IMG/VR virus record: IMGVR_UViG_3300047564_001020
Location: 1 to 27,738 of that record
Reading direction: 5' to 3' (one strand)
DNA length: 27,738 nt
Source of the DNA: a virus
The position numbers were made by a program, and so were the translations under genes. Positions 12,981 to 22,360 of this stretch are shown piece after piece (the first letter of the stretch is position 1; the number at the start of each line of letters is the position of its first letter). Below the pieces are notes generated by a model, which saw nothing but the letters and a program-made list of their open reading frames with translations, searched no databases and was not told the DNA's origin.

Positions 12981-13646
12981 ATGGCTAATGCAAAAAATAT
13001 TATCGTTGGTGCTGGTGCAGTCTACCTAGGCGCAACCACAACCGCAGAATACGATGAAGATGACATTTTCTCTGCTGGTGCTCTAACTGCCCAGTCTGCA
13101 AATGGAAAGTCTGCTCAAATTGAAGCCAATGTTGATGCTACAAAGTGGCAGTCAGTTGGTTACACATCTGAGGGTGTAGACTTGTCTTTCGAACCAGACT
13201 TCGGTGAGGTTCAGGTTGACCAGCTATTGGATGTTGCTAAGATTTTCAAGCAGGGTCAGAGAGTTATGTTGAACACATCCTTCACTGAAGGAACTCTTGA
13301 GAACCTACTTATCGCTATCGGTGGCAAGGCAGGTGACCTTACAAGCTCTGTTAGTGGTGTTCGTCCACTATGGCTAAATGGTGGTGCTCTAGGATACTCT
13401 CCAGTTGAGCGCTCTATCATGGTTGTAGGACCAGGACCAGATTCACTAAATCAGGGTGGTACAAAGTCTGTAGAGAGAATCTACATCGGCTACCGCGCTC
13501 TTTCTATGGATACTGTTGGTGTTGGTGTTAAGAGAGATGCAGCTACAGTATTCCCTGTAAGCTTCCGTCTTCTCCCATCAAGCACAGCAACTGCTCCAGA
13601 TGGAAACGCTGCATACGGTAAGATTATTGACCGAGTTTACTCTTAA
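12981..13646 (+). CDS. Major tail (tube) protein
   Basis: This 221-residue protein begins MANAKNIIVGAGAVYLG, typical of siphovirus tube proteins, and is followed by beta-rich text including GVDLSFEPDFGEVQVDQLLDVAKIF and a closing YGKIIDRVYS. It should polymerise into the tail tube. The ribosome binding site AAGGAGGTG (12961-12969) is excellent and the codon use is like that of the capsid gene, consistent with high expression. A terminator-like hairpin follows. A single tube gene with no sheath gene beside it supports a siphovirus. Confidence 0.85.
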   Translation: MANAKNIIVGAGAVYLGATTTAEYDEDDIFSAGALTAQSANGKSAQIEANVDATKWQSVGYTSEGVDLSFEPDFGEVQVDQLLDVAKIFKQGQRVMLNTSFTEGTLENLLIAIGGKAGDLTSSVSGVRPLWLNGGALGYSPVERSIMVVGPGPDSLNQGGTKSVERIYIGYRALSMDTVGVGVKRDAATVFPVSFRLLPSSTATAPDGNAAYGKIIDRVYS

Positions 13647-13753: not shown

Positions 13754-14089
13754 GTGGCAACAAAGATTTACGAATCAATTGAACTAGAGCTACTAGATGG
13801 CACTACAATTGAAGTAAAACCACTAAGCATTAAAAATCTTAGAGAAGTAATGAAGACATGGGCTAAGGCTCAGGATGTAAAATCCGAAGACGACTTCCTT
13901 GAAGTCCTCGTTGAATGTACGCAGATTGCTATGAGACAATTTGCGCCAAAGCTTGCAGAAGACAAAGCGGCTCTAGAAGACGCTGTTGACTTGCAAACAA
14001 TGTACAAGGTTCTAGAAGTTGGTGCAGACATTAAGTTGAACGACCCAAACCAACTTCAGGTAGCTCTGGAACAAGCTGGTCTGAGCTAG
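13754..14089 (+). CDS. Tail assembly chaperone, short form (gpG-like)
   Basis: This 111-residue protein starts at GTG 13754, set by AGGAGG 5 nt upstream. The sequence MATKIYESIELELLDGTTIEVKPLSIKNLREVMKTWAKA is typical of the first chaperone of siphovirus tails, which coats the tape measure protein during tail assembly. It ends at TAG 14087-14089, inside the loop of a predicted frameshift stem. Ribosomes that slip at 14044-14050 make the longer form instead. An in-frame TTG further upstream (13727) overlaps the promoter and is less likely. Confidence 0.85.
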   Translation: MATKIYESIELELLDGTTIEVKPLSIKNLREVMKTWAKAQDVKSEDDFLEVLVECTQIAMRQFAPKLAEDKAALEDAVDLQTMYKVLEVGADIKLNDPNQLQVALEQAGLS

Positions 14090-14418
14090 ACTTAGCTACC
14101 TACGAATCTGAAGTTTTCCTTCTAGGTCACTGGAAGGATTATAACGAACTAGAGGAGTCTTTATCGATGCAAGAACTTATGGCTACTCTCAAATCAATTT
14201 ATGAGAGAGAGCACAGACACAACAAGTTCTTGGCTTTAATGCAAGGCATTGATATTGACAAAGAAAACAAGGGAGGCGAACAGGACGGAGCCGTGTCATT
14301 CGAAGAAGTTAAGGCAAGAGCAATTGCAAAGATGAGTGGAGACCAGTCACTGGCACATTCAGCAAAGTTTGGCTTTGACGATTTAGATGGTACAGGTTAC
14401 AACATAGTCGGACTATAA
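13754..14418 (+). CDS. Tail assembly chaperone, -1 frameshift fusion (gpGT-like)
   Basis: Slipping back one base at 14044-14050 joins the first 99 codons of the short form to the -1 frame, giving a protein of about 221 residues ending at TAA 14416-14418. The added part contains SWSELDLATYESEVFLLGHWKDY and SMQELMATLKSIYEREHRHNKFLALMQGIDID, the pattern I know from second-frame chaperones of other siphoviruses. An independent start at ATG 14167 would cut off half of that domain and has no ribosome binding site. The product should recruit tube subunits to the chaperone-coated tape measure protein, encoded immediately downstream. Confidence 0.85.
14044..14050 (+). promoter_or_regulatory. Slippery heptamer for -1 frameshifting
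   Basis: CCCAAAC lies in the zero frame as C CCA AAC, a canonical X XXY YYZ site. After slipping, the tRNAs re-pair with CCC AAA. It falls inside the only window where the -1 frame is open (after the -1 stop at 14032-14034) and before the zero-frame stop at 14087. Confidence 0.85.
14058..14101 (+). other. Predicted stem-loop stimulating the frameshift
   Basis: AGGTAGCT (14058-14065) pairs perfectly with AGCTACCT (14094-14101), starting 7 nt after the slippery site. The zero-frame stop lies in the loop. An alternative 6-bp stem TAGCTC/GAGCTA (14061-14066 with 14083-14088) competes with it. Confidence 0.55.
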
Positions 14419-14419
14419 T

Positions 14420-17400
14420 ATGGCAGATTTTGAATCCAAGTTTAGGTACGATAGTGATTTTAGCAAAGTAACCGCTGACATCAAAGCACTTGTCAGAGAG
14501 GCTACTAATGCTAACTCTGTATTCGCCCAATTAAATAAGACAGCTGCAGCCGTGAAAACGGATGCAGCTCGTTCTTTTTCTGCACAAGCAGGATTTGCTG
14601 GATTTAAAGCACAGATTGTAGACCTTACTGGAGCAACAGAAAAATTTGGTCAGCAGTTAATGCGAAACAAACTCACAATGCGTGAGTACTTTAGAGAGGC
14701 TGCACAGGCTTATAAGAAAGACTCCAAAGCCAGAGCACTCGCTGAAAGAGAAGTAAGAAGAGCACAGTCTACCGTTGTTGGTATGGGCGATGTTGGTGGA
14801 AGAAGAAAGGGAATCCTTCTAACACCAGACGCTCTTGATATGTCTAAGGCAAATACTCAGTTGATGGTTGCCTCTAAGCAATACGAAATCTTTAATAATC
14901 TTGTACAGCAAGGTTCAACTGCTCTTGTTAACTGGGGTAAAAATACTCAGTGGGCTGGTCGTCAGCTAACTGTTGGTCTTACCGTCCCAATGGGCATCTT
15001 TACAGGACAAGCACTAAGAGCCTTTGCTGAACTAGACAAGCAAGTAACACGATTTAGAAAAGTATACGGCTCTGACTTAGCTGGAACTGTTGAGAGTGCA
15101 ACGGACGATATGATTAGCACGATTCAAACATTAGGCTCTGAGTTTGCTAAGCAATATGGTATTGCATCCGCTGAAACAATGGCTCTTGCAGCCGACCTAG
15201 CAGCAGCAGGTTTTGAAGGACAAAAACTAGCAACAGCAGTTCAACAAACAACCCGTATGATGGTTCTTGGTGAAGTTGATAGACAAGAAGCAATGAAAGC
15301 TACTTTATCTATTCAAACTGCATTCAATCAAAGCTCAAAGGAGCTTGCACAGTCAGTAGACTTTCTAAACCAAGTAGAAAACCAGACTTCTGCTTCCCTA
15401 CAAGACTTGGTAGAAGCAATTCCTAAAGCTGGTCCAGTTATTCAGTCTCTTGGTGGAGATGTTAAAGACCTGTCCGTCCTTATGACTGCCATGCGTGAGG
15501 GTGGTATTGCTGCAGCCGAAGGTGCTAACGCACTAAAGTCTGGTATGGCATCCCTTATCTCTCCAACAACCAAAGCAATTGATGTTGCTAGACAATTTGG
15601 TATCGACCTTGAGGGTGTTGTAAAGCGCAATAGAGGCGAACTAATGCCAATGCTTATAGAATTCCAGGACCAACTAAGAGGTCTTGACGACTTTGGTAAG
15701 GCAAAAGTTATTGAAGAAATCTTTGGTAAGTATCAGTTTGCTCGTATCTCAGCCCTATTTGATAACCTAAATCAGCAGGGTTCTCAGACTGTTGGAATGA
15801 TTAAACTTATGGATATGTCTGCAGATGAACTTGCAAAGAAATCATATTCAGAACTTAAGGCGCAAGAAAATGCGCCATCAACAAGACTTGCAGCAATGCA
15901 ACAGCAATTAAATGAGCAACTTATCAAAGTTGGTGCAGACCTAGCAGAGACTTTATTGCCAATTATGCAGGGTGCATTAGATATTCTTTCTAAGATTGTA
16001 GATGGATTTAATAATCTTCCAGGACCAATTAAGTCATTTGCTAAAATTATTGGTGGTATTACACTAGCAGCAGGTCCAGTATTGATGCTTGCTGGTGTGT
16101 TTGGAAACTTGATTGGTAACGCAATTAAGTTTGGTATGAGTATTGTAAATATGTTCAAGAAGATGACTGGACATCCAGTTCAAGAACTTCAAATTCTTTC
16201 TGACGAAGAGCTTGCTGCAAAACTTGCTGCAGACCAATTAACAGGGGCATATGAAAGACAGAGAACATCTGTCATGGAACTTAATGCTGCTCTAGATATG
16301 TATATTGCAAATCTAAGAGAGGCAGCAGCAGTTGCACCTCCTGGAGCAGTAATGCCAGGAAGAGCTGGAAGACCTCCACAAAGAAGACAAAGCGGTGGAA
16401 TTATCTTTGCTCAAAATGGTGTCGACTCTGGTGGCAGAATTAATGGTTATGGTGGTGGGGACACAGTTCCTGCAATGCTAGAGCCAGGCGAGTTTGTTAT
16501 TAATAAGAAATCTTCTAAAAAGTATAAGGGTCTGCTAACAGATATTAATCAAGGGAAAAATATTCCTGGATATACAGATGCTGGAATGGTTGGACCAAAT
16601 GGTGCTATTCCTGGAACAGAAAGAGTTCCTTCTGGTAGCTTTAAAAATACTGGATTGAAGGACGCAGCTAGAACTGTTAATGATGAATGGATGAGGTCAT
16701 CTTCTACATCATTCCCAAAAATAATTCAAGAATTAGAAGCTCTCAGAGGAGTAGCTGAGCCAGGTTCTCCATCTATGAGAATCCTTGAGGAATTATTACA
16801 GCAATCTAGAGATAGGGCAGTAGATAGCACTAAAACAAGTGCAAAAGCACACCTAATAGAAGCCATATCAATTATTGAACAAGAGCTCACAGATGCAGAA
16901 AGAAAAACTTTAGGAATATCTGACCAATCTATAACTGTTGAAAAGAAACAGTTTGGAATGACACAAAGAGCAGAGCAATATTCATATAATAATATGATTG
17001 AAACTCTTGGAAGAGCTGGAAACCTAGCAAAAATTGAATCATTTGATATAGATAATAGGGATGAGGTTCTAAAGCTACTAAGAAGAACAGAATCCCCTAT
17101 TGAACCAAGAGAAGTAAAAATTCTAGATGCCTTCTTTAAGCAGGTATCTGGCAATGATGAAATGAGAAAAGCCTTAAATCTAGTTGCTGGAGAGTTTAAT
17201 GGAAAACAACTAGACTCAGCTCTCAAGTTCTCTGACAGAATGACAGGAATTATCCTTGAAGATGAAGCTGCAATGCAAAGAGCAATTGACAGAGGTGAGC
17301 AACCAAAAGGATATAGTGGCTATAGAAGTAAACTATCAGAGCAATATGTTGCTGGTCAGATAGGAATTCTAACTGATGAAACCATAGAAAAGGCAACTGG

Positions 17401-20400
17401 GTTAGCGGCAGGTAAGGGAGACTTAGCAGCAAAGTCTAGACAAATTGACGAATTGTATAGAGTTGCAGATGATATTTTTAGTCCTTTAGACTCTTTAACG
17501 CCAAGTTCTACATTAGAACAAAGAGCAAGAGCAAAGGTTCTAATTGGAGACAGAATTGCATCTGTCTCAGAAGCTATAACTGGTAAAAAACTTGCAACTT
17601 CAGAGCAGATTGAGAGTCTTAGAAAAAAGGTTAATCGTGGTCACTACTTAGGAAAAACTTTTTATAAGCAAGCCGCAATAAAGGTTGGTGGAGCAAGAGC
17701 AAGACAGATTCCTGCAACTCTAGATGATATCTTTATAGGTAGAAATATTGATAGAACAGACCCACTACTTGGCTTACTAACTAGAAGAATGGGCATTGGA
17801 AAGAAAGATGGCGGTCTAATCAAGGGATACGCTAAAGGTGGTATGATTGGTGGTCTTCTACAAATTCTTTCAAAGCAGGAGCAAAGAGCACTGCCAAACG
17901 CCACTGAGTTTCTACAAAAAGGATTTAATGTCAGCCGACTTGGTGGATTAGAACTTGCAGCAGTAAGAAAGAAACAAACTGGTTTAATGCACGACACAAA
18001 AATGTTTCGTGGCGGAAGATACAATTGGGACGCTGCTGAGGTAGGACAAACAATTACAATCCCTGGCTCTCGTTCTTGGTCTACTCGTGAAGATGTTGCA
18101 GATACATTTATGAGAATGAATGCCCTTGGTGGCGAAAAGAGAAGCGCACACATTGCTAAGAATCTTCTTATACAAAATGGAATTGACCCACAAACATTTG
18201 GTGTACCAGATTCATATGATGCATTCAGAGTTGCAAAAACTAAAGAAGAAGAATTAATGCTTCACAGGCTTGAGAGAATGCGTGAACAGGAGCGTGGACG
18301 AAAAGACCTAGATAGAATAAAAGAGCTTCAAGCTCAAAAGAAGGCTCTTATGGATTCTCCATATCCATCTCAAGAATCTACATTATTCGGTCTTACCGAA
18401 CCAAAACAATTTGAGGTTGCAAACAGACAAAGAGAGATTAAAGAGCTTGATAGATTAATTCATTCATCATATGTAGACTATGAAGTAGCAAAAGAACAAA
18501 TGGCTCGCCGTAGAGAAGCAATGAGAACGGCTGATGAATCTCCAGTAATCTTTGAAATGGTTACTCCAAAGGGAACTCAAACTCTTCCAGTAAGCGACCT
18601 AACAGGTCGTGGAAGATTTATTCAAGGCATGGGTGCAATGGATGAGTTCGAACATCTACTTACTGATGGAACAATGAGAATTGTCAAGAAGTATATTGAT
18701 GAGCGTGGAGTTAAGAGAATTGTTGGAGAGTTCGTAGGAGCTAAAAAGTTTGCTCTTGGTGGAGTTGTTCCTCCTAAGTTTGCTATGCAAAAAGCAGTAT
18801 CAGAAGAGCTAGTTGCTACATTTGGAAGAATGAATCCTCCAACATCTGGACATAAGAAATTATTAGACCTTGCAGCTACCACGGCAGCCGAAAGAGGAGC
18901 AGACTTTAGGTTTGGTGTATCACAAACTGTAGATGGGAAGAAGAATCCATTTACTCTACAACAAAAGACTGCAATGATTGACGAAACCATGTCTGAATAT
19001 GCTCAGAACTTAATTAGAGACGCAGCCTTAAGAACTCCCGTACAGTTTGTTGAATCTGCCCTTGAAGCGGGATATAAGAAGTTAACATTTGTTGTTGGTG
19101 AAGATAGACTAGACTCATTTAAGTTCCTAGAGAAGATGGGGGCAGAAAAGGGACTTGCTGTTGAACTAGTTGGAATTGCAAGACCAGAAGGCGCAATGTC
19201 TGCTTCTGCGGTTAGAGACGCTATGTCAAGAGGAGATGTTGATTTTGTTGCAAGTAGCCTACCTGGAAGCCTTTCTGAAGAAGATAGAAGAAGAATTGCT
19301 AAGGATAGAATTAAGCAATTTGAAGCAATTGCTCAAAAACGCAGAAGTGGCGGAGTAATCTTTGGTCATGGAATGAATTCTGGTGGAAGACTAAATGGCT
19401 ATGGCGGAGGAGATACAGTCCCAGCCATGCTTGAGCCTGGGGAGTTTGTAATCAACAAGCAATCCTCTTCCAAGTATGCACCACTTCTAGAAAACATCAA
19501 TAAGGATGCTCTTCCTGGATTTGCAGGTGGATTTACTGAAAAGGTAGAAAATGCCTCTAGAATGAGTGGTGGCTTAATGGGTCTTGGAATGAGCATTCCA
19601 TTTATGCCAATGATGGTTGAGTCATTTAAGACTGCCACCGACCCAATGACAAAAGCACTAACTGGTTTAGGATTAGCAATTCAAACTCTTCAAGCTGGGA
19701 TTGTTCTTTTAAATGGAGCAATTAAGCTTAACACAATGGCACAGGGAGCTGATGGTCTTGGTGGTCTTGGTGGAATGAAGAATAAAATGGCTAATGCTGG
19801 AAGTCTGGTATCTGGCAAAGGAAAGTCTATGATGGACGCTGGAAAGTGGGCAAGCGGTCTAGGCGGTAAGGGTGCTGGAATGGCTAAGGCTGGAGGAGTT
19901 CTAAAACAAGCAGCTGGAAAGTCTATGATGGCAGTTGGCTCAACGATTACAAGACTTGCACCTATGCTATTTAATCCAGTTACTGCTGCATTAGCAATTG
20001 CTGGTGTTGCAATTGTCGGTGGTATTATGCTTTGGAATAAGCACCTAGATGAGTTAAAGAAAAAGGCAGCATCTGCATATAACGAAGCTACTGAGATGGC
20101 TAAAGTATATAATATTGAACTTAAGAAGACTAGTACAGCACTAAAGGAAAATGCTGACCAGGCTCGCTCACTAGGAATGGGTAATGTTATCAAGGGTCGT
20201 GGACAGGTTGAAAAAGACTACGCAAAGGCTGTAACAAAAGACTATGGTGACCTTATCACTAAGGTTAAAGAAGCATCTACTTCACAAGAAAAGATTAATG
20301 ACCTAACATCAACCTACGCATCTCTGATTACACAAGGATTTTCTGCCGACCAAGCAAAAGAGATTACTGCAGAAATTGCAAGACAGGCTGGAGCAACTCA

Positions 20401-22360
20401 AGAACTTAGCGTTGCAATGTCTGGCATGGCAGGTAACATTAAGAATGCTGGAGATGCAATGGATGTCCTAGTAACATCTGTTACAAATGCAATTGACGCT
20501 CTTGAAACAACCGAGGAAAGAGTAGCAGCACTAAATGGAGCATACGCAAACCTTGTAAGACAAGCAGCAGATAATCCAGTTCAATTCTCAATTTCTTCAA
20601 ATGAGCTAATTGACAATGCTGTTGCAATTGACCCATCAGCAGCAAGACAAATGATGGAACAGCAACTTGCAGATGCTGGATACGGAGAAGGCTCAACCCC
20701 AAGAGATGTTTTAGATAGCCTAAATCTAACAACAGAAGAGGGTAAGAAGAGAGCTCAGCTTGTAATGCGGGGAGTAGCTCTTGGTCTCAAAGAAGGAGAC
20801 TTTAAAGGTTCAACAGTAGAATTAGAAGCTAAAGTTAACAAACTAACAGTTGCTGAACAGGCAAAGGTAGACCTTAATAAGCAAATGGATGCCTTGATTG
20901 CTGCAGAAGAAAAGAATATTGAAGCCACAAATAAGTGGGCAAATGCAGCAATTGATAGAATTGAAGCAGAAAAAGATGCTCTTCAAGACGCTCATGAAAA
21001 GAGAATGAAGCAACTAGAAGATGAGGCAGAAGCACTTCAAGATAGAGCAGACCTAATCCGTGAAAACTCTGATTTCTATATCAAGCAGCTTGAAAAGGAA
21101 TATGATACAGAGCAGTATTACCAGCAACAAAGAGATAATGCTGCAGGTGGTCTAAAGTCACTAGCAGAGGGAGACATTTTTGGATACCTTCAGTCTCAAA
21201 TGCAAGCATCCTCTGACGCTGCACAGTTTGGTAGAGAACAGGCAATGCAGCAGATTGAAGATACTAGAGACTCTGCCCTCAAAGCAATTGATGATGCGCT
21301 AAAAAGAAATAACGATGCTCAACAAGCAGCAGATGACTCTCTAAATAAAGCTCTTGAAAATGCAGATGACAGAATTGAAGCAATTAATAGCAAGCGTTCA
21401 AAAATTATCAAGGGTTTCCAAGATATTATTGATGCAGCACAAAAAGTAAAAGATGCTAAAGTTGGAGAAGTGACCAATGAGCAGCTTCAAAAGATTGAAA
21501 ATGCTGGAAAAGAAGTTTCCAAGATTGTTCCAAAACAAATGGAAGCTGGAGTAAATGAAGCCTCAGATATGATTGTTGAAAACTTTGGTACATCAATTGG
21601 AAAGGCTGTTAATACGGTTGCAAAAGATTCTAAGCTAACAAAGGGAGAAGCAGGAAAACTTCTTCAAACCGTTCTTGGAATCTTTACTGGAACTGGAGTA
21701 AATCCAGAAACTGTAAGACAGGCGGAAAACCCTAACTTTGGAAGAAATCAAACCTCAGACCAAGCAGACTCTGATGCAGCAAATTCAGCTGGAAATGCGG
21801 AAGGAACTACAAATTCTACTGCTGGCGGTAATGCTAAAGTCTCATACTATGCATATCCAATTACAACTCAGTCTGGTACAACTTATACTGTATATAAGAA
21901 GGTTGGAAAAGGAAAATGGAAACGACATCAAATAGGTGTAACATCTGGCACCGCATTTGGTGGAGTAAAGGTAGAAAATCTTAAAACAAGACCTTATAAC
22001 ATGGGTGGAAAAGTAATGAATTTTAATGATGGAAGTATAGTTCCAGGATTTGGTAACTCAGATACTGTAAACGCTATGCTTACCCCTGGAGAATTTGTTA
22101 TTGATAGAACTGCAACCAGAAGAAATCTTCCAGTTCTACAAGCGATGAATGCAGGTGCTACATTCTCTGTCCCACAACTTAAGAGCCTAGGTGGTAAAAT
22201 GGGCTCTGAAAGCGAAATTAATAACAACAATATCAACATGCCAGTGAATATTACAATCAATGGCTCCAATCTGACTATTGACCAGATTAAGAATGATATT
22301 TACGGAGAATTAATAAAGGCAAAGAACATGATTGCAAATTCAATTGGAGAGGGTAGATAA
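14420..22360 (+). CDS. Tape measure protein with embedded enzyme-like domains
   Basis: This 2646-residue protein sets tail length and probably helps DNA ejection. Residues ~200-460 match the TP901-type tape measure core (KQYGIASAETMALAADLAAAGF, GDVKDLSVLMTAMREGG, KAKVIEEIFGKYQFARISALFDNL). Hydrophobic stretches lie at ~541-575 and around residue 1855 (VTAALAIAGVAIVGGIMLW). A Gly-rich PGEF module occurs three times (655-702, 1641-1686, 2528-2569). Between copies 1 and 2 lie an unknown helical region (~745-1125), an ADP-ribosyltransferase-like region (~1185-1440) and a nucleotidyltransferase-like region (~1455-1635), separated by Gly-Gly hinges. Residues ~2180-2380 are strongly charged coiled coil. 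ATG 14420 follows the chaperone stop by one base and has no good ribosome binding site, so translation is probably coupled. Confidence 0.9.
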   Translation: MADFESKFRYDSDFSKVTADIKALVREATNANSVFAQLNKTAAAVKTDAARSFSAQAGFAGFKAQIVDLTGATEKFGQQLMRNKLTMREYFREAAQAYKKDSKARALAEREVRRAQSTVVGMGDVGGRRKGILLTPDALDMSKANTQLMVASKQYEIFNNLVQQGSTALVNWGKNTQWAGRQLTVGLTVPMGIFTGQALRAFAELDKQVTRFRKVYGSDLAGTVESATDDMISTIQTLGSEFAKQYGIASAETMALAADLAAAGFEGQKLATAVQQTTRMMVLGEVDRQEAMKATLSIQTAFNQSSKELAQSVDFLNQVENQTSASLQDLVEAIPKAGPVIQSLGGDVKDLSVLMTAMREGGIAAAEGANALKSGMASLISPTTKAIDVARQFGIDLEGVVKRNRGELMPMLIEFQDQLRGLDDFGKAKVIEEIFGKYQFARISALFDNLNQQGSQTVGMIKLMDMSADELAKKSYSELKAQENAPSTRLAAMQQQLNEQLIKVGADLAETLLPIMQGALDILSKIVDGFNNLPGPIKSFAKIIGGITLAAGPVLMLAGVFGNLIGNAIKFGMSIVNMFKKMTGHPVQELQILSDEELAAKLAADQLTGAYERQRTSVMELNAALDMYIANLREAAAVAPPGAVMPGRAGRPPQRRQSGGIIFAQNGVDSGGRINGYGGGDTVPAMLEPGEFVINKKSSKKYKGLLTDINQGKNIPGYTDAGMVGPNGAIPGTERVPSGSFKNTGLKDAARTVNDEWMRSSSTSFPKIIQELEALRGVAEPGSPSMRILEELLQQSRDRAVDSTKTSAKAHLIEAISIIEQELTDAERKTLGISDQSITVEKKQFGMTQRAEQYSYNNMIETLGRAGNLAKIESFDIDNRDEVLKLLRRTESPIEPREVKILDAFFKQVSGNDEMRKALNLVAGEFNGKQLDSALKFSDRMTGIILEDEAAMQRAIDRGEQPKGYSGYRSKLSEQYVAGQIGILTDETIEKATGLAAGKGDLAAKSRQIDELYRVADDIFSPLDSLTPSSTLEQRARAKVLIGDRIASVSEAITGKKLATSEQIESLRKKVNRGHYLGKTFYKQAAIKVGGARARQIPATLDDIFIGRNIDRTDPLLGLLTRRMGIGKKDGGLIKGYAKGGMIGGLLQILSKQEQRALPNATEFLQKGFNVSRLGGLELAAVRKKQTGLMHDTKMFRGGRYNWDAAEVGQTITIPGSRSWSTREDVADTFMRMNALGGEKRSAHIAKNLLIQNGIDPQTFGVPDSYDAFRVAKTKEEELMLHRLERMREQERGRKDLDRIKELQAQKKALMDSPYPSQESTLFGLTEPKQFEVANRQREIKELDRLIHSSYVDYEVAKEQMARRREAMRTADESPVIFEMVTPKGTQTLPVSDLTGRGRFIQGMGAMDEFEHLLTDGTMRIVKKYIDERGVKRIVGEFVGAKKFALGGVVPPKFAMQKAVSEELVATFGRMNPPTSGHKKLLDLAATTAAERGADFRFGVSQTVDGKKNPFTLQQKTAMIDETMSEYAQNLIRDAALRTPVQFVESALEAGYKKLTFVVGEDRLDSFKFLEKMGAEKGLAVELVGIARPEGAMSASAVRDAMSRGDVDFVASSLPGSLSEEDRRRIAKDRIKQFEAIAQKRRSGGVIFGHGMNSGGRLNGYGGGDTVPAMLEPGEFVINKQSSSKYAPLLENINKDALPGFAGGFTEKVENASRMSGGLMGLGMSIPFMPMMVESFKTATDPMTKALTGLGLAIQTLQAGIVLLNGAIKLNTMAQGADGLGGLGGMKNKMANAGSLVSGKGKSMMDAGKWASGLGGKGAGMAKAGGVLKQAAGKSMMAVGSTITRLAPMLFNPVTAALAIAGVAIVGGIMLWNKHLDELKKKAASAYNEATEMAKVYNIELKKTSTALKENADQARSLGMGNVIKGRGQVEKDYAKAVTKDYGDLITKVKEASTSQEKINDLTSTYASLITQGFSADQAKEITAEIARQAGATQELSVAMSGMAGNIKNAGDAMDVLVTSVTNAIDALETTEERVAALNGAYANLVRQAADNPVQFSISSNELIDNAVAIDPSAARQMMEQQLADAGYGEGSTPRDVLDSLNLTTEEGKKRAQLVMRGVALGLKEGDFKGSTVELEAKVNKLTVAEQAKVDLNKQMDALIAAEEKNIEATNKWANAAIDRIEAEKDALQDAHEKRMKQLEDEAEALQDRADLIRENSDFYIKQLEKEYDTEQYYQQQRDNAAGGLKSLAEGDIFGYLQSQMQASSDAAQFGREQAMQQIEDTRDSALKAIDDALKRNNDAQQAADDSLNKALENADDRIEAINSKRSKIIKGFQDIIDAAQKVKDAKVGEVTNEQLQKIENAGKEVSKIVPKQMEAGVNEASDMIVENFGTSIGKAVNTVAKDSKLTKGEAGKLLQTVLGIFTGTGVNPETVRQAENPNFGRNQTSDQADSDAANSAGNAEGTTNSTAGGNAKVSYYAYPITTQSGTTYTVYKKVGKGKWKRHQIGVTSGTAFGGVKVENLKTRPYNMGGKVMNFNDGSIVPGFGNSDTVNAMLTPGEFVIDRTATRRNLPVLQAMNAGATFSVPQLKSLGGKMGSESEINNNNINMPVNITINGSNLTIDQIKNDIYGELIKAKNMIANSIGEGR
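16382..16525 (+). repeat. Tape measure PGEF module, copy 1
   Basis: Residues 655-702 of the tape measure protein carry SGGRINGYGGG followed by GGDTVPAMLEPGEFVINK and KSSKKY. Over the 33 aligned residues from SGGR onward, 30 are identical to copy 2, but the DNA differs at 22 of 99 bases, almost all at third codon positions. Confidence 0.85.
16640..17800 (+). other. Unrecognised helical region of the tape measure protein
   Basis: Residues ~742-1127 are helix-rich, with segments such as MRILEELLQQSRDRAVDS and REVKILDAFFKQVSGNDEM, and no motif that I recognise. The region ends at a hinge, KKDGGLIKGYAKGGMIGG. It has far less hydrophobic content than typical tape measure rod sequence and may be another folded cargo domain. 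Confidence 0.4.
17972..18757 (+). other. ADP-ribosyltransferase-like region within the tape measure protein
   Basis: Three motifs of the R-S-E class of ADP-ribosyltransferases occur in order. Arg1197 is in MFRGG. Ser1221-Thr1222 are in SRSWSTREDVADTF, matching the STS strand followed by a helix with A..F. Glu1409-x-Glu1411 are in EFEHLLTDGTMRIV, matching the ExE loop and strand. PVIFEMVTPKGTQTLPV before the last motif fits the expected central strands. A charged helical insertion of ~100 residues separates the second and third motifs, which is long for this family. Such enzymes transfer ADP-ribose from NAD+ to proteins or RNA. The assignment rests on motifs seen by eye. Confidence 0.6.
18773..19335 (+). 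other. Nucleotidyltransferase-like domain within the tape measure protein
   Basis: Residues ~1452-1638 match the HxGH nucleotidyltransferase superfamily (NMN adenylyltransferase, cytidylyltransferases). GRMNPPTSGHKKLL holds the nucleotide-binding T-x-G-H at 1475-1478. FVVGEDRLDSFKFLEKMG fits the GxDR strand and helix. MSASAVRDAMSRGD (Ser1594 to Arg1599) fits the ISSTxxR-type motif. The same combination of GRFNPPT-GH and MSAS-xR motifs is known from large myovirus and cyanophage proteins. The substrate cannot be told from sequence. It is bounded by the hinge FALGGVVPPKF and PGEF copy 2. Confidence 0.75.
19340..19477 (+). repeat. Tape measure PGEF module, copy 2
   Basis: Residues 1641-1686 repeat the GGDTVPAMLEPGEFVINK module exactly at the protein level in its core, 986 residues after copy 1. 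It closes the enzyme-bearing insertion and is followed by hydrophobic tape measure sequence. Confidence 0.85.
22001..22126 (+). repeat. Tape measure PGEF module, copy 3 (diverged)
   Basis: Residues 2528-2569 read MGGKVMNFNDG, then IVPGFGNSDTVNAMLTPGEF and VIDRTATRRN. This is the usual C-terminal form of the module in tape measure proteins, with the same DTV-AML-PGEFVI skeleton as copies 1 and 2. Confidence 0.75.

Follow-up and report, generated by a model that had tools for sequence, protein, structure and literature searches.

A stretch of 27,738 bases from the virus record IMGVR_UViG_3300047564_001020 (hereafter the window) contains, with a probability that we put at about 0.93, a programmed −1 ribosomal frameshift site in a pair of phage tail assembly chaperone genes, predicted from the sequence and its comparison with relatives (Table 1). 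Such a site is of the lambda G/GT type, a kind already known in phages. Most ribosomes would read the zero frame to its end and produce the short G-type chaperone, and a minority, positioned at CCA AAC with tRNA-Pro and tRNA-Asn, would move back by one base, to CCC AAA, and continue in the −1 frame. The predicted product of the slip is a GT-type fusion of 221 aa, with 122 aa added past codon 99, in which the C-terminal helix of G would be replaced by a Ser/Gly-rich linker followed by the T domain. In the clade of the window, a hairpin situated about 7–8 nt past the heptamer probably pauses the ribosome and would thus raise the frequency of the slip. We infer the slippage, its efficiency and the role of the hairpin from the presence and phase of the heptamer, from the conservation of heptamer and −1 frame, and from gene order. 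By analogy with lambda, G would bind the tape measure protein and T would recruit the tail tube subunit.

Table 1. Features of the chaperone locus and its surroundings, in positions of the window.
Feature	Position	Strand	Basis
Major tail / tail tube protein (context)	12981..13646	+	PF25681 Phage_TTP_17, E 3e-7, above cutoff; phrog_2175
Zero-frame tail assembly chaperone G (lambda gpG-like)	13754..14089	+	111 aa; phrog_10504; annotated Streptomyces phage chaperones
Overlap of zero frame and −1 frame	14035..14089	+	−1 frame open 14035–14418; zero frame ends at TAG
Predicted slippery heptamer C_CCA_AAC, codons 98–99	14044..14050	+	phase; conservation in relatives
T-like −1 frame extension	14050..14418	+	phrog_10474, E 3e-13
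5′ arm of 8-bp downstream stem, AGGTAGCT	14058..14065	+	folding; comparison with relatives
Weak inner hairpin AGCU(N6)AGCU in the large loop	14074..14087	+	corresponds to an inner helix that is stronger in relatives
3′ arm of 8-bp downstream stem, AGCTACCT	14094..14101	+	folding; comparison with relatives
Tape measure protein (context)	14420..22360	+	TIGR01760 tape_meas_TP901, E 1.6e-30

The gene for G starts at the GTG at 13754, with AGGAGG just upstream, and stops at the TAG at 14087–14089, and its 3′ end is overlapped by a second open reading frame in the −1 frame. The pair lies between a gene matching a tail tube model upstream and one matching tape_meas_TP901 downstream. As in lambda, the overlapping frames are thus situated between the major tail protein and the tape measure, and slipping into the −1 frame close to the 3′ end of G would give a G–T fusion; unlike lambda, where the slippery heptamer is GGGAAAG, the window has CCCAAAC.

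The G protein matches the profile phrog_10504 (E 5e-23), whose family is listed as of unknown function, as is that of the T match, phrog_10474. A tblastn search of a phage collection with G (E <= 0.01) identified 127 records, all from Streptomyces phages, and hence gave no sequence link of G to lambda; the best 20 of the 127 matches, with E down to 3e-22, were all annotated as tail assembly chaperone, and some of the further rows as hypothetical protein. No Pfam family was found for G; weak matches of G and of the T frame below the cutoffs of Pfam and NCBIfam were taken as chance. Likewise, sequence searches of solved structures with the G and T profiles gave nothing convincing. The AlphaFold2 model of G had a mean pLDDT of 82.7, and that of T was poor (58.8). 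Compared with solved structures, the G model gave weak matches to YqbN (3klu, first row; Z 5.4, rmsd 4.5, 85 residues aligned), which we take to be a phage-type chaperone, and to HK97 gp13 (2ob9, third row; Z 3.9, rmsd 6.2, 85 aligned), Z values of 3.9–5.4 being within the range of common arrangements. A Foldseek search of the PDB with G returned no match at E <= 0.001, and since the best E was 1.1 the likeness in fold is only suggestive. In BFVD, G had two matches at E <= 0.001, one of them named tail assembly chaperone and the other without a name, and further matches named chaperones had E values of 0.05 and above. The identity as chaperones given to both frames in the initial annotation is supported by gene order, annotated relatives and the weak fold matches.

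The same annotation had proposed CCCAAAC as a slippery heptamer within the overlap of the two frames, and the positions that it gave for the heptamer, the stem and the stop all hold. The zero-frame phase is GA(C CCA AAC), AAC being codon 99 counted from the GTG, and this is the phase needed for a −1 slip. Composition alone would give such a motif at times: the genes of the window have 22 in-phase X_XXY_YYZ heptamers in 9017 codon positions, i.e. a chance of ca. 3.6 % per overlap of 15 codons, so the observation needs comparative support. We obtained it from two separate searches of IMG/VR, one with the zero-frame protein (80 of 120 matches kept and examined) and one with the −1 frame protein (80 of 119). 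The heptamer was present in phase in every locus kept, as CCCAAAC in 75 and CCCAAAT in five of the first set, and in 76 and four, respectively, of the second; the two sets share contigs, and four rows are cut by contig ends. The distance from the heptamer to the zero-frame stop was 43 nt in 157 of the 160 rows and 49 nt in the remaining three, and none of the 160 had a second in-phase heptamer in the overlap. The conservation in relatives that could have failed to appear was thus found with both queries, and the in-phase X_XXY_YYZ motif is conserved in the overlap, with the exception of nine Boydwoodruffvirinae-type records carrying CCCGGAA, described below. A heptamer present by chance in an ordinary overlap, or an assembly error splitting a single gene, is hence an extremely improbable explanation: the 3.6 % expectation speaks for the former, whereas both are contradicted by the conservation of the heptamer and its phase in those 160 rows, from partly overlapping and, in four cases, truncated contigs, and by the fact that all 18 regions fetched from isolated Streptomyces phages have the two frames arranged alike.

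Variation at silent positions was not evenly spread. Because the amino acids at the heptamer are likewise conserved, these positions are the fair test of selection on the nucleotides. The Pro codon of the site was CCA in all 82 distinct sequences, versus 130 of 175 Pro codons elsewhere in the G genes. The preceding codon ended in C in 82 of 82 (81 GAC and one AAC, in locus L146), GAC making up 209 of the 561 Asp codons in the rest of these genes. The codon before that one, for Asn, was AAC in 58 and AAT in 24 of the 82, which indicates that there has been enough time for codons to vary. We put no probability on these counts, since related sequences are counted as separate, and the silent positions of the heptamer look constrained. 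Taken with the conservation of the heptamer, the −1 frame and the gene order, this makes the frameshift reading of CCCAAAC well supported.

The overlap appears to be under constraint in both frames, as over 60 rows the first 12 residues after the heptamer have a mean identity of 63 % in frame 0, compared with 59 % in frame −1. In frame 0, positions 14051–14086 encode QLQVALEQAGLS, an Ala/Leu/Glu-rich segment in which AlphaFold2 predicts a helix at residues 98–107, with low confidence there; in frame −1, positions 14050–14085 encode PTSGSSGTSWSE, a Ser/Gly-rich linker. The overlap is thus probably dual-purpose, forming a helix when read as part of G and a flexible linker when read as part of GT, as far as the models allow. 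A TGA of the −1 frame directly abuts the 5′ side of the heptamer in 22 of 61 distinct sequences, so that the change of frame is possible at or after the heptamer and never upstream of it. Past the slip, the −1 frame reads approximately PK[PS]xSxGSGTxWxELDLA...FLLGHWKDY, a pattern common to metagenomic and Streptomyces members.

The T frame might instead be translated apart, from an internal ATG at 14167 and with no frameshift, G and T then being independent proteins. In the window, a T-only protein is conceivable, because a good Shine-Dalgarno-like GAGGAG (14152–14157) lies 9 nt before this ATG; moreover, an ATG occupies the equivalent codon in 50 of 61 distinct sequences, and a separate downstream T gene is annotated in 13 of the 18 GenBank records fetched. 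However, a Shine-Dalgarno-like 4-mer precedes that ATG in only six of the 50, including the window, and the other 11 of the 61 have another codon there. The −1 frame is, besides, conserved over ca. 39 codons upstream of the ATG, a part that contains no ATG, GTG or TTG before the FLLGHWKDY motif in 22 of the 61 sequences, the window among them (the other 39 have at least one), and an internal start leaves the constrained heptamer unexplained. We therefore consider independent translation of T very unlikely as a replacement for the frameshift.

As to what stimulates the predicted frameshift, a perfect 8-bp stem had been described 7 nt downstream of the heptamer (spacer 14051–14057), with the zero-frame stop within its loop, and this was confirmed. 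The stem alone folds at about −16 kcal/mol and does not stand out from dinucleotide shuffles (z −1.18 to −1.45). Silent-codon shuffles after the stop matched the MFE of the window in 12.6 % of cases and all seven core pairs in 9.3 %. These shuffles covered 31 of the 61 rows, picked by hand, and an MFE as low as the native one arose in at most 5 % of shuffles for six of 11 stem-bearing rows and four of 20 others. Since the stem is ordinary in shuffles of the window alone, it gains support solely through its relatives. The 61 distinct sequences used for this comparison were chosen as carriers of the heptamer, leaving out nine loci without it, and three loci (L064, L073 and L124) were excluded for their short length. 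At least six of the seven core pairs can form in 22 of the 61 and not in 39, the heptamer being present in all 61 by choice. In an alignment of 60 of these rows (all except L081), 62.3 % of the stem cells pair. A second alignment, of 22 rows, was picked by eye for apparent pairing ability, and its figures consequently lean towards the stem; we relied instead on a branch defined by a tree (A3), which holds the window among its 15 rows (13 distinct), all of them among the sequences with at least six core pairs, and whose support of 84/90 is below the starred level of the tool.

It is possible, if rather less likely, that the heptamer is used and that the 8-bp stem is incidental, frameshifting then depending on the heptamer alone or on some other element. 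The 39 sequences that keep the heptamer with fewer than six core pairs and the shuffle frequencies given above are in agreement with this, as is the fact that in branch A3 changes on both sides affect only two of the eight pairs, a number also attained in 168 of 500 shuffles, and that the outermost (eighth) pair is kept in four of its 13 distinct rows and unpaired in nine. Against it, 90.4 % of the stem cells of A3 are paired, a value as high in none of 500 shuffles, and the covariation score exceeds those of all 500 shuffles and of every slid register. In the four-row clade of the window, pairs 18–55 and 19–54 change and yet remain paired, although pair 22–51 is broken in L005. Additionally, the 60 nt starting 5 nt past the heptamer fold better than other segments of their own locus (z <= −1) in 56 of the 61 sequences, a comparison in which G+C was not controlled. 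The pairing at the level of the clade, the 39 sequences without the stem and the low z values in 56 together suggest that a stimulatory hairpin is likely in the clade of the window, with a form that differs between clades. The stem is as described in position and pairing, and with at least six core pairs in 22 of the 61 sequences it is a feature of a clade and not of the family.

A competing 6-bp stem had also been suggested, and TAGCTC at 14061–14066 can indeed pair on paper with GAGCTA at 14083–14088. We rejected it as a functional alternative, because on branch A3 it showed no covariation and three of the 13 distinct rows keep its end pair (alignment columns 18–45). No single consensus structure was obtained for all relatives, RNAalifold on 60 rows giving only −2.36 kcal/mol. 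In L051 and L061, which are among the stronger members, the stem runs on into the inner helix and reaches about −25 kcal/mol, and a larger hairpin of three tiers, in which 77.0 % of cells pair across 57 distinct rows, is limited to part of the family. A longer fold of the window, 14051–14140 (MFE −33.6, z −3.8), pairs 14052–14061, which adjoins the heptamer, with 14106–14115; examined by eye on the alignment, its core is present in L004 as well as the window, and in part in L087. Separately, a strong local hairpin at 14117–14138, UCCUUCUAG-GUCA-CUGGAAGGA, lies over the conserved FLLGHWK codons, ca. 70 nt past the heptamer; the consensus of 60 relatives has only four pairs here, in a different register.

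The 18 regions fetched from the 127 Streptomyces phage records divide equally between two forms of the site. Nine (L001, L002, L165–L168, L171, L172 and L175) have CCCAAAT 43 nt before the stop and belong to the Loccivirinae (Stanwilliamsviridae) wherever the record has a taxonomy line below realm. Like the window, they have homologous G (ca. 37–45 % identity in the rows listed) and T, in the −1 frame, and the same distance to the stop in nine of nine; unlike it, their heptamer ends in T instead of C and the outer stem of the window is absent. The other nine (L003, L169, L170, L173, L174, L176–L179), which are Boydwoodruffvirinae of the same family wherever such a line exists, share with the window homologous G and T, the −1 frame and the LNDP context, whereas at the homologous codons all nine have C_CCG_GAA (GAC CCG GAA), situated 52–61 nt before the stop, that is, 9–18 nt farther. 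No in-phase X_XXY_YYZ motif exists in the overlap of these nine, and their −1 frame begins with PG[TI]xxR, after which the same T motif follows. The Pro codon at the site is CCG in nine of nine records (eight distinct), versus three of the 24 other Pro codons of those genes. On balance, we favor somewhat the view that a homologous slip site has been exchanged between the canonical C_CCA_AAC/T and the non-canonical C_CCG_GAA, with no loss of the −1 frame, the position or the Ser/Gly-rich linker. If true, the exchange would make CCCGGAA a genuine slippery site, so far hypothesized from phage annotations alone, and the natural CCCAAAY/CCCGGAA swap at one homologous site would be a testable pair on the limits of the X_XXY_YYZ rule.

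Chaperone genes of this kind are easily annotated as two separate ORFs. A chaperone CDS joined from two pieces is present in GenBank for five of the 18 (Emma1919, Sham, Patelgo, Francob and Yaboi), four of them among the nine Loccivirinae and one, Yaboi, among the nine Boydwoodruffvirinae. The remaining 13 (L003, L165, L167 and L170–L179) have two separate genes and no joined CDS, and the frameshift was probably missed in these annotations. In the same 13 records T is given its own gene, starting farther downstream and in Faust (L171) only 60 bases long.

In lambda, some ribosomes shift to the −1 frame close to the end of g, so that G and GT arise at ca. 30:1; G binds to the tape measure and T to the tail tube subunit, and the system is widely conserved in long-tailed phages (PMC5009743, which attributes the frameshift to Levin 1993 and Xu 2004). 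According to the same source, C_CCA_AAG is highly shift-prone in E. coli, where A_AAA_AAC is much less so than A_AAA_AAG, and the sites of HCTV-1 and -2, two haloarchaeal viruses, are G_GGA_AAC and A_AAA_AAC (PMC5009743). The lambda system and these shift-prone heptamers are the grounds on which we assign the site of the window to a known kind. For the non-canonical form, the PRFect paper gives a hypothetical slippery motif, 'threetwotwo', of which CCCGGAA is the commonest form, and suggests G:U pairing (PMC10885494). This motif shares CCCGGAA with the Boydwoodruffvirinae, and the available part of the paper draws no link to a homologous CCCAAAY site (PMC10885494). The homology between CCCGGAA and CCCAAAY would thus add support to the PRFect motif, with the proviso that its SEA-PHAGES data may include the same phages. 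Judged by title or the start of the abstract, no paper among the literature matches listed deals with this site, apart from PMC10885494 for CCCGGAA and PMC5009743 for C_CCA_AAG, and a search for frameshifting in Stanwilliamsviridae gave no match. The conservation on both sides of the slip thus supports a frameshifted tail chaperone in a large, little-studied and mostly environmental group of phages; beyond this group and the CCCAAAY/CCCGGAA swap, the locus represents ordinary phage biology.

Apart from the chaperone genes, residues 1467–1589 of the tape measure protein gave sub-threshold matches to cytidylyltransferase-like and nicotinamide-nucleotide adenylyltransferase models (E 1e-3 and 0.044), which suggests that an enzyme-like domain may be embedded in this protein.
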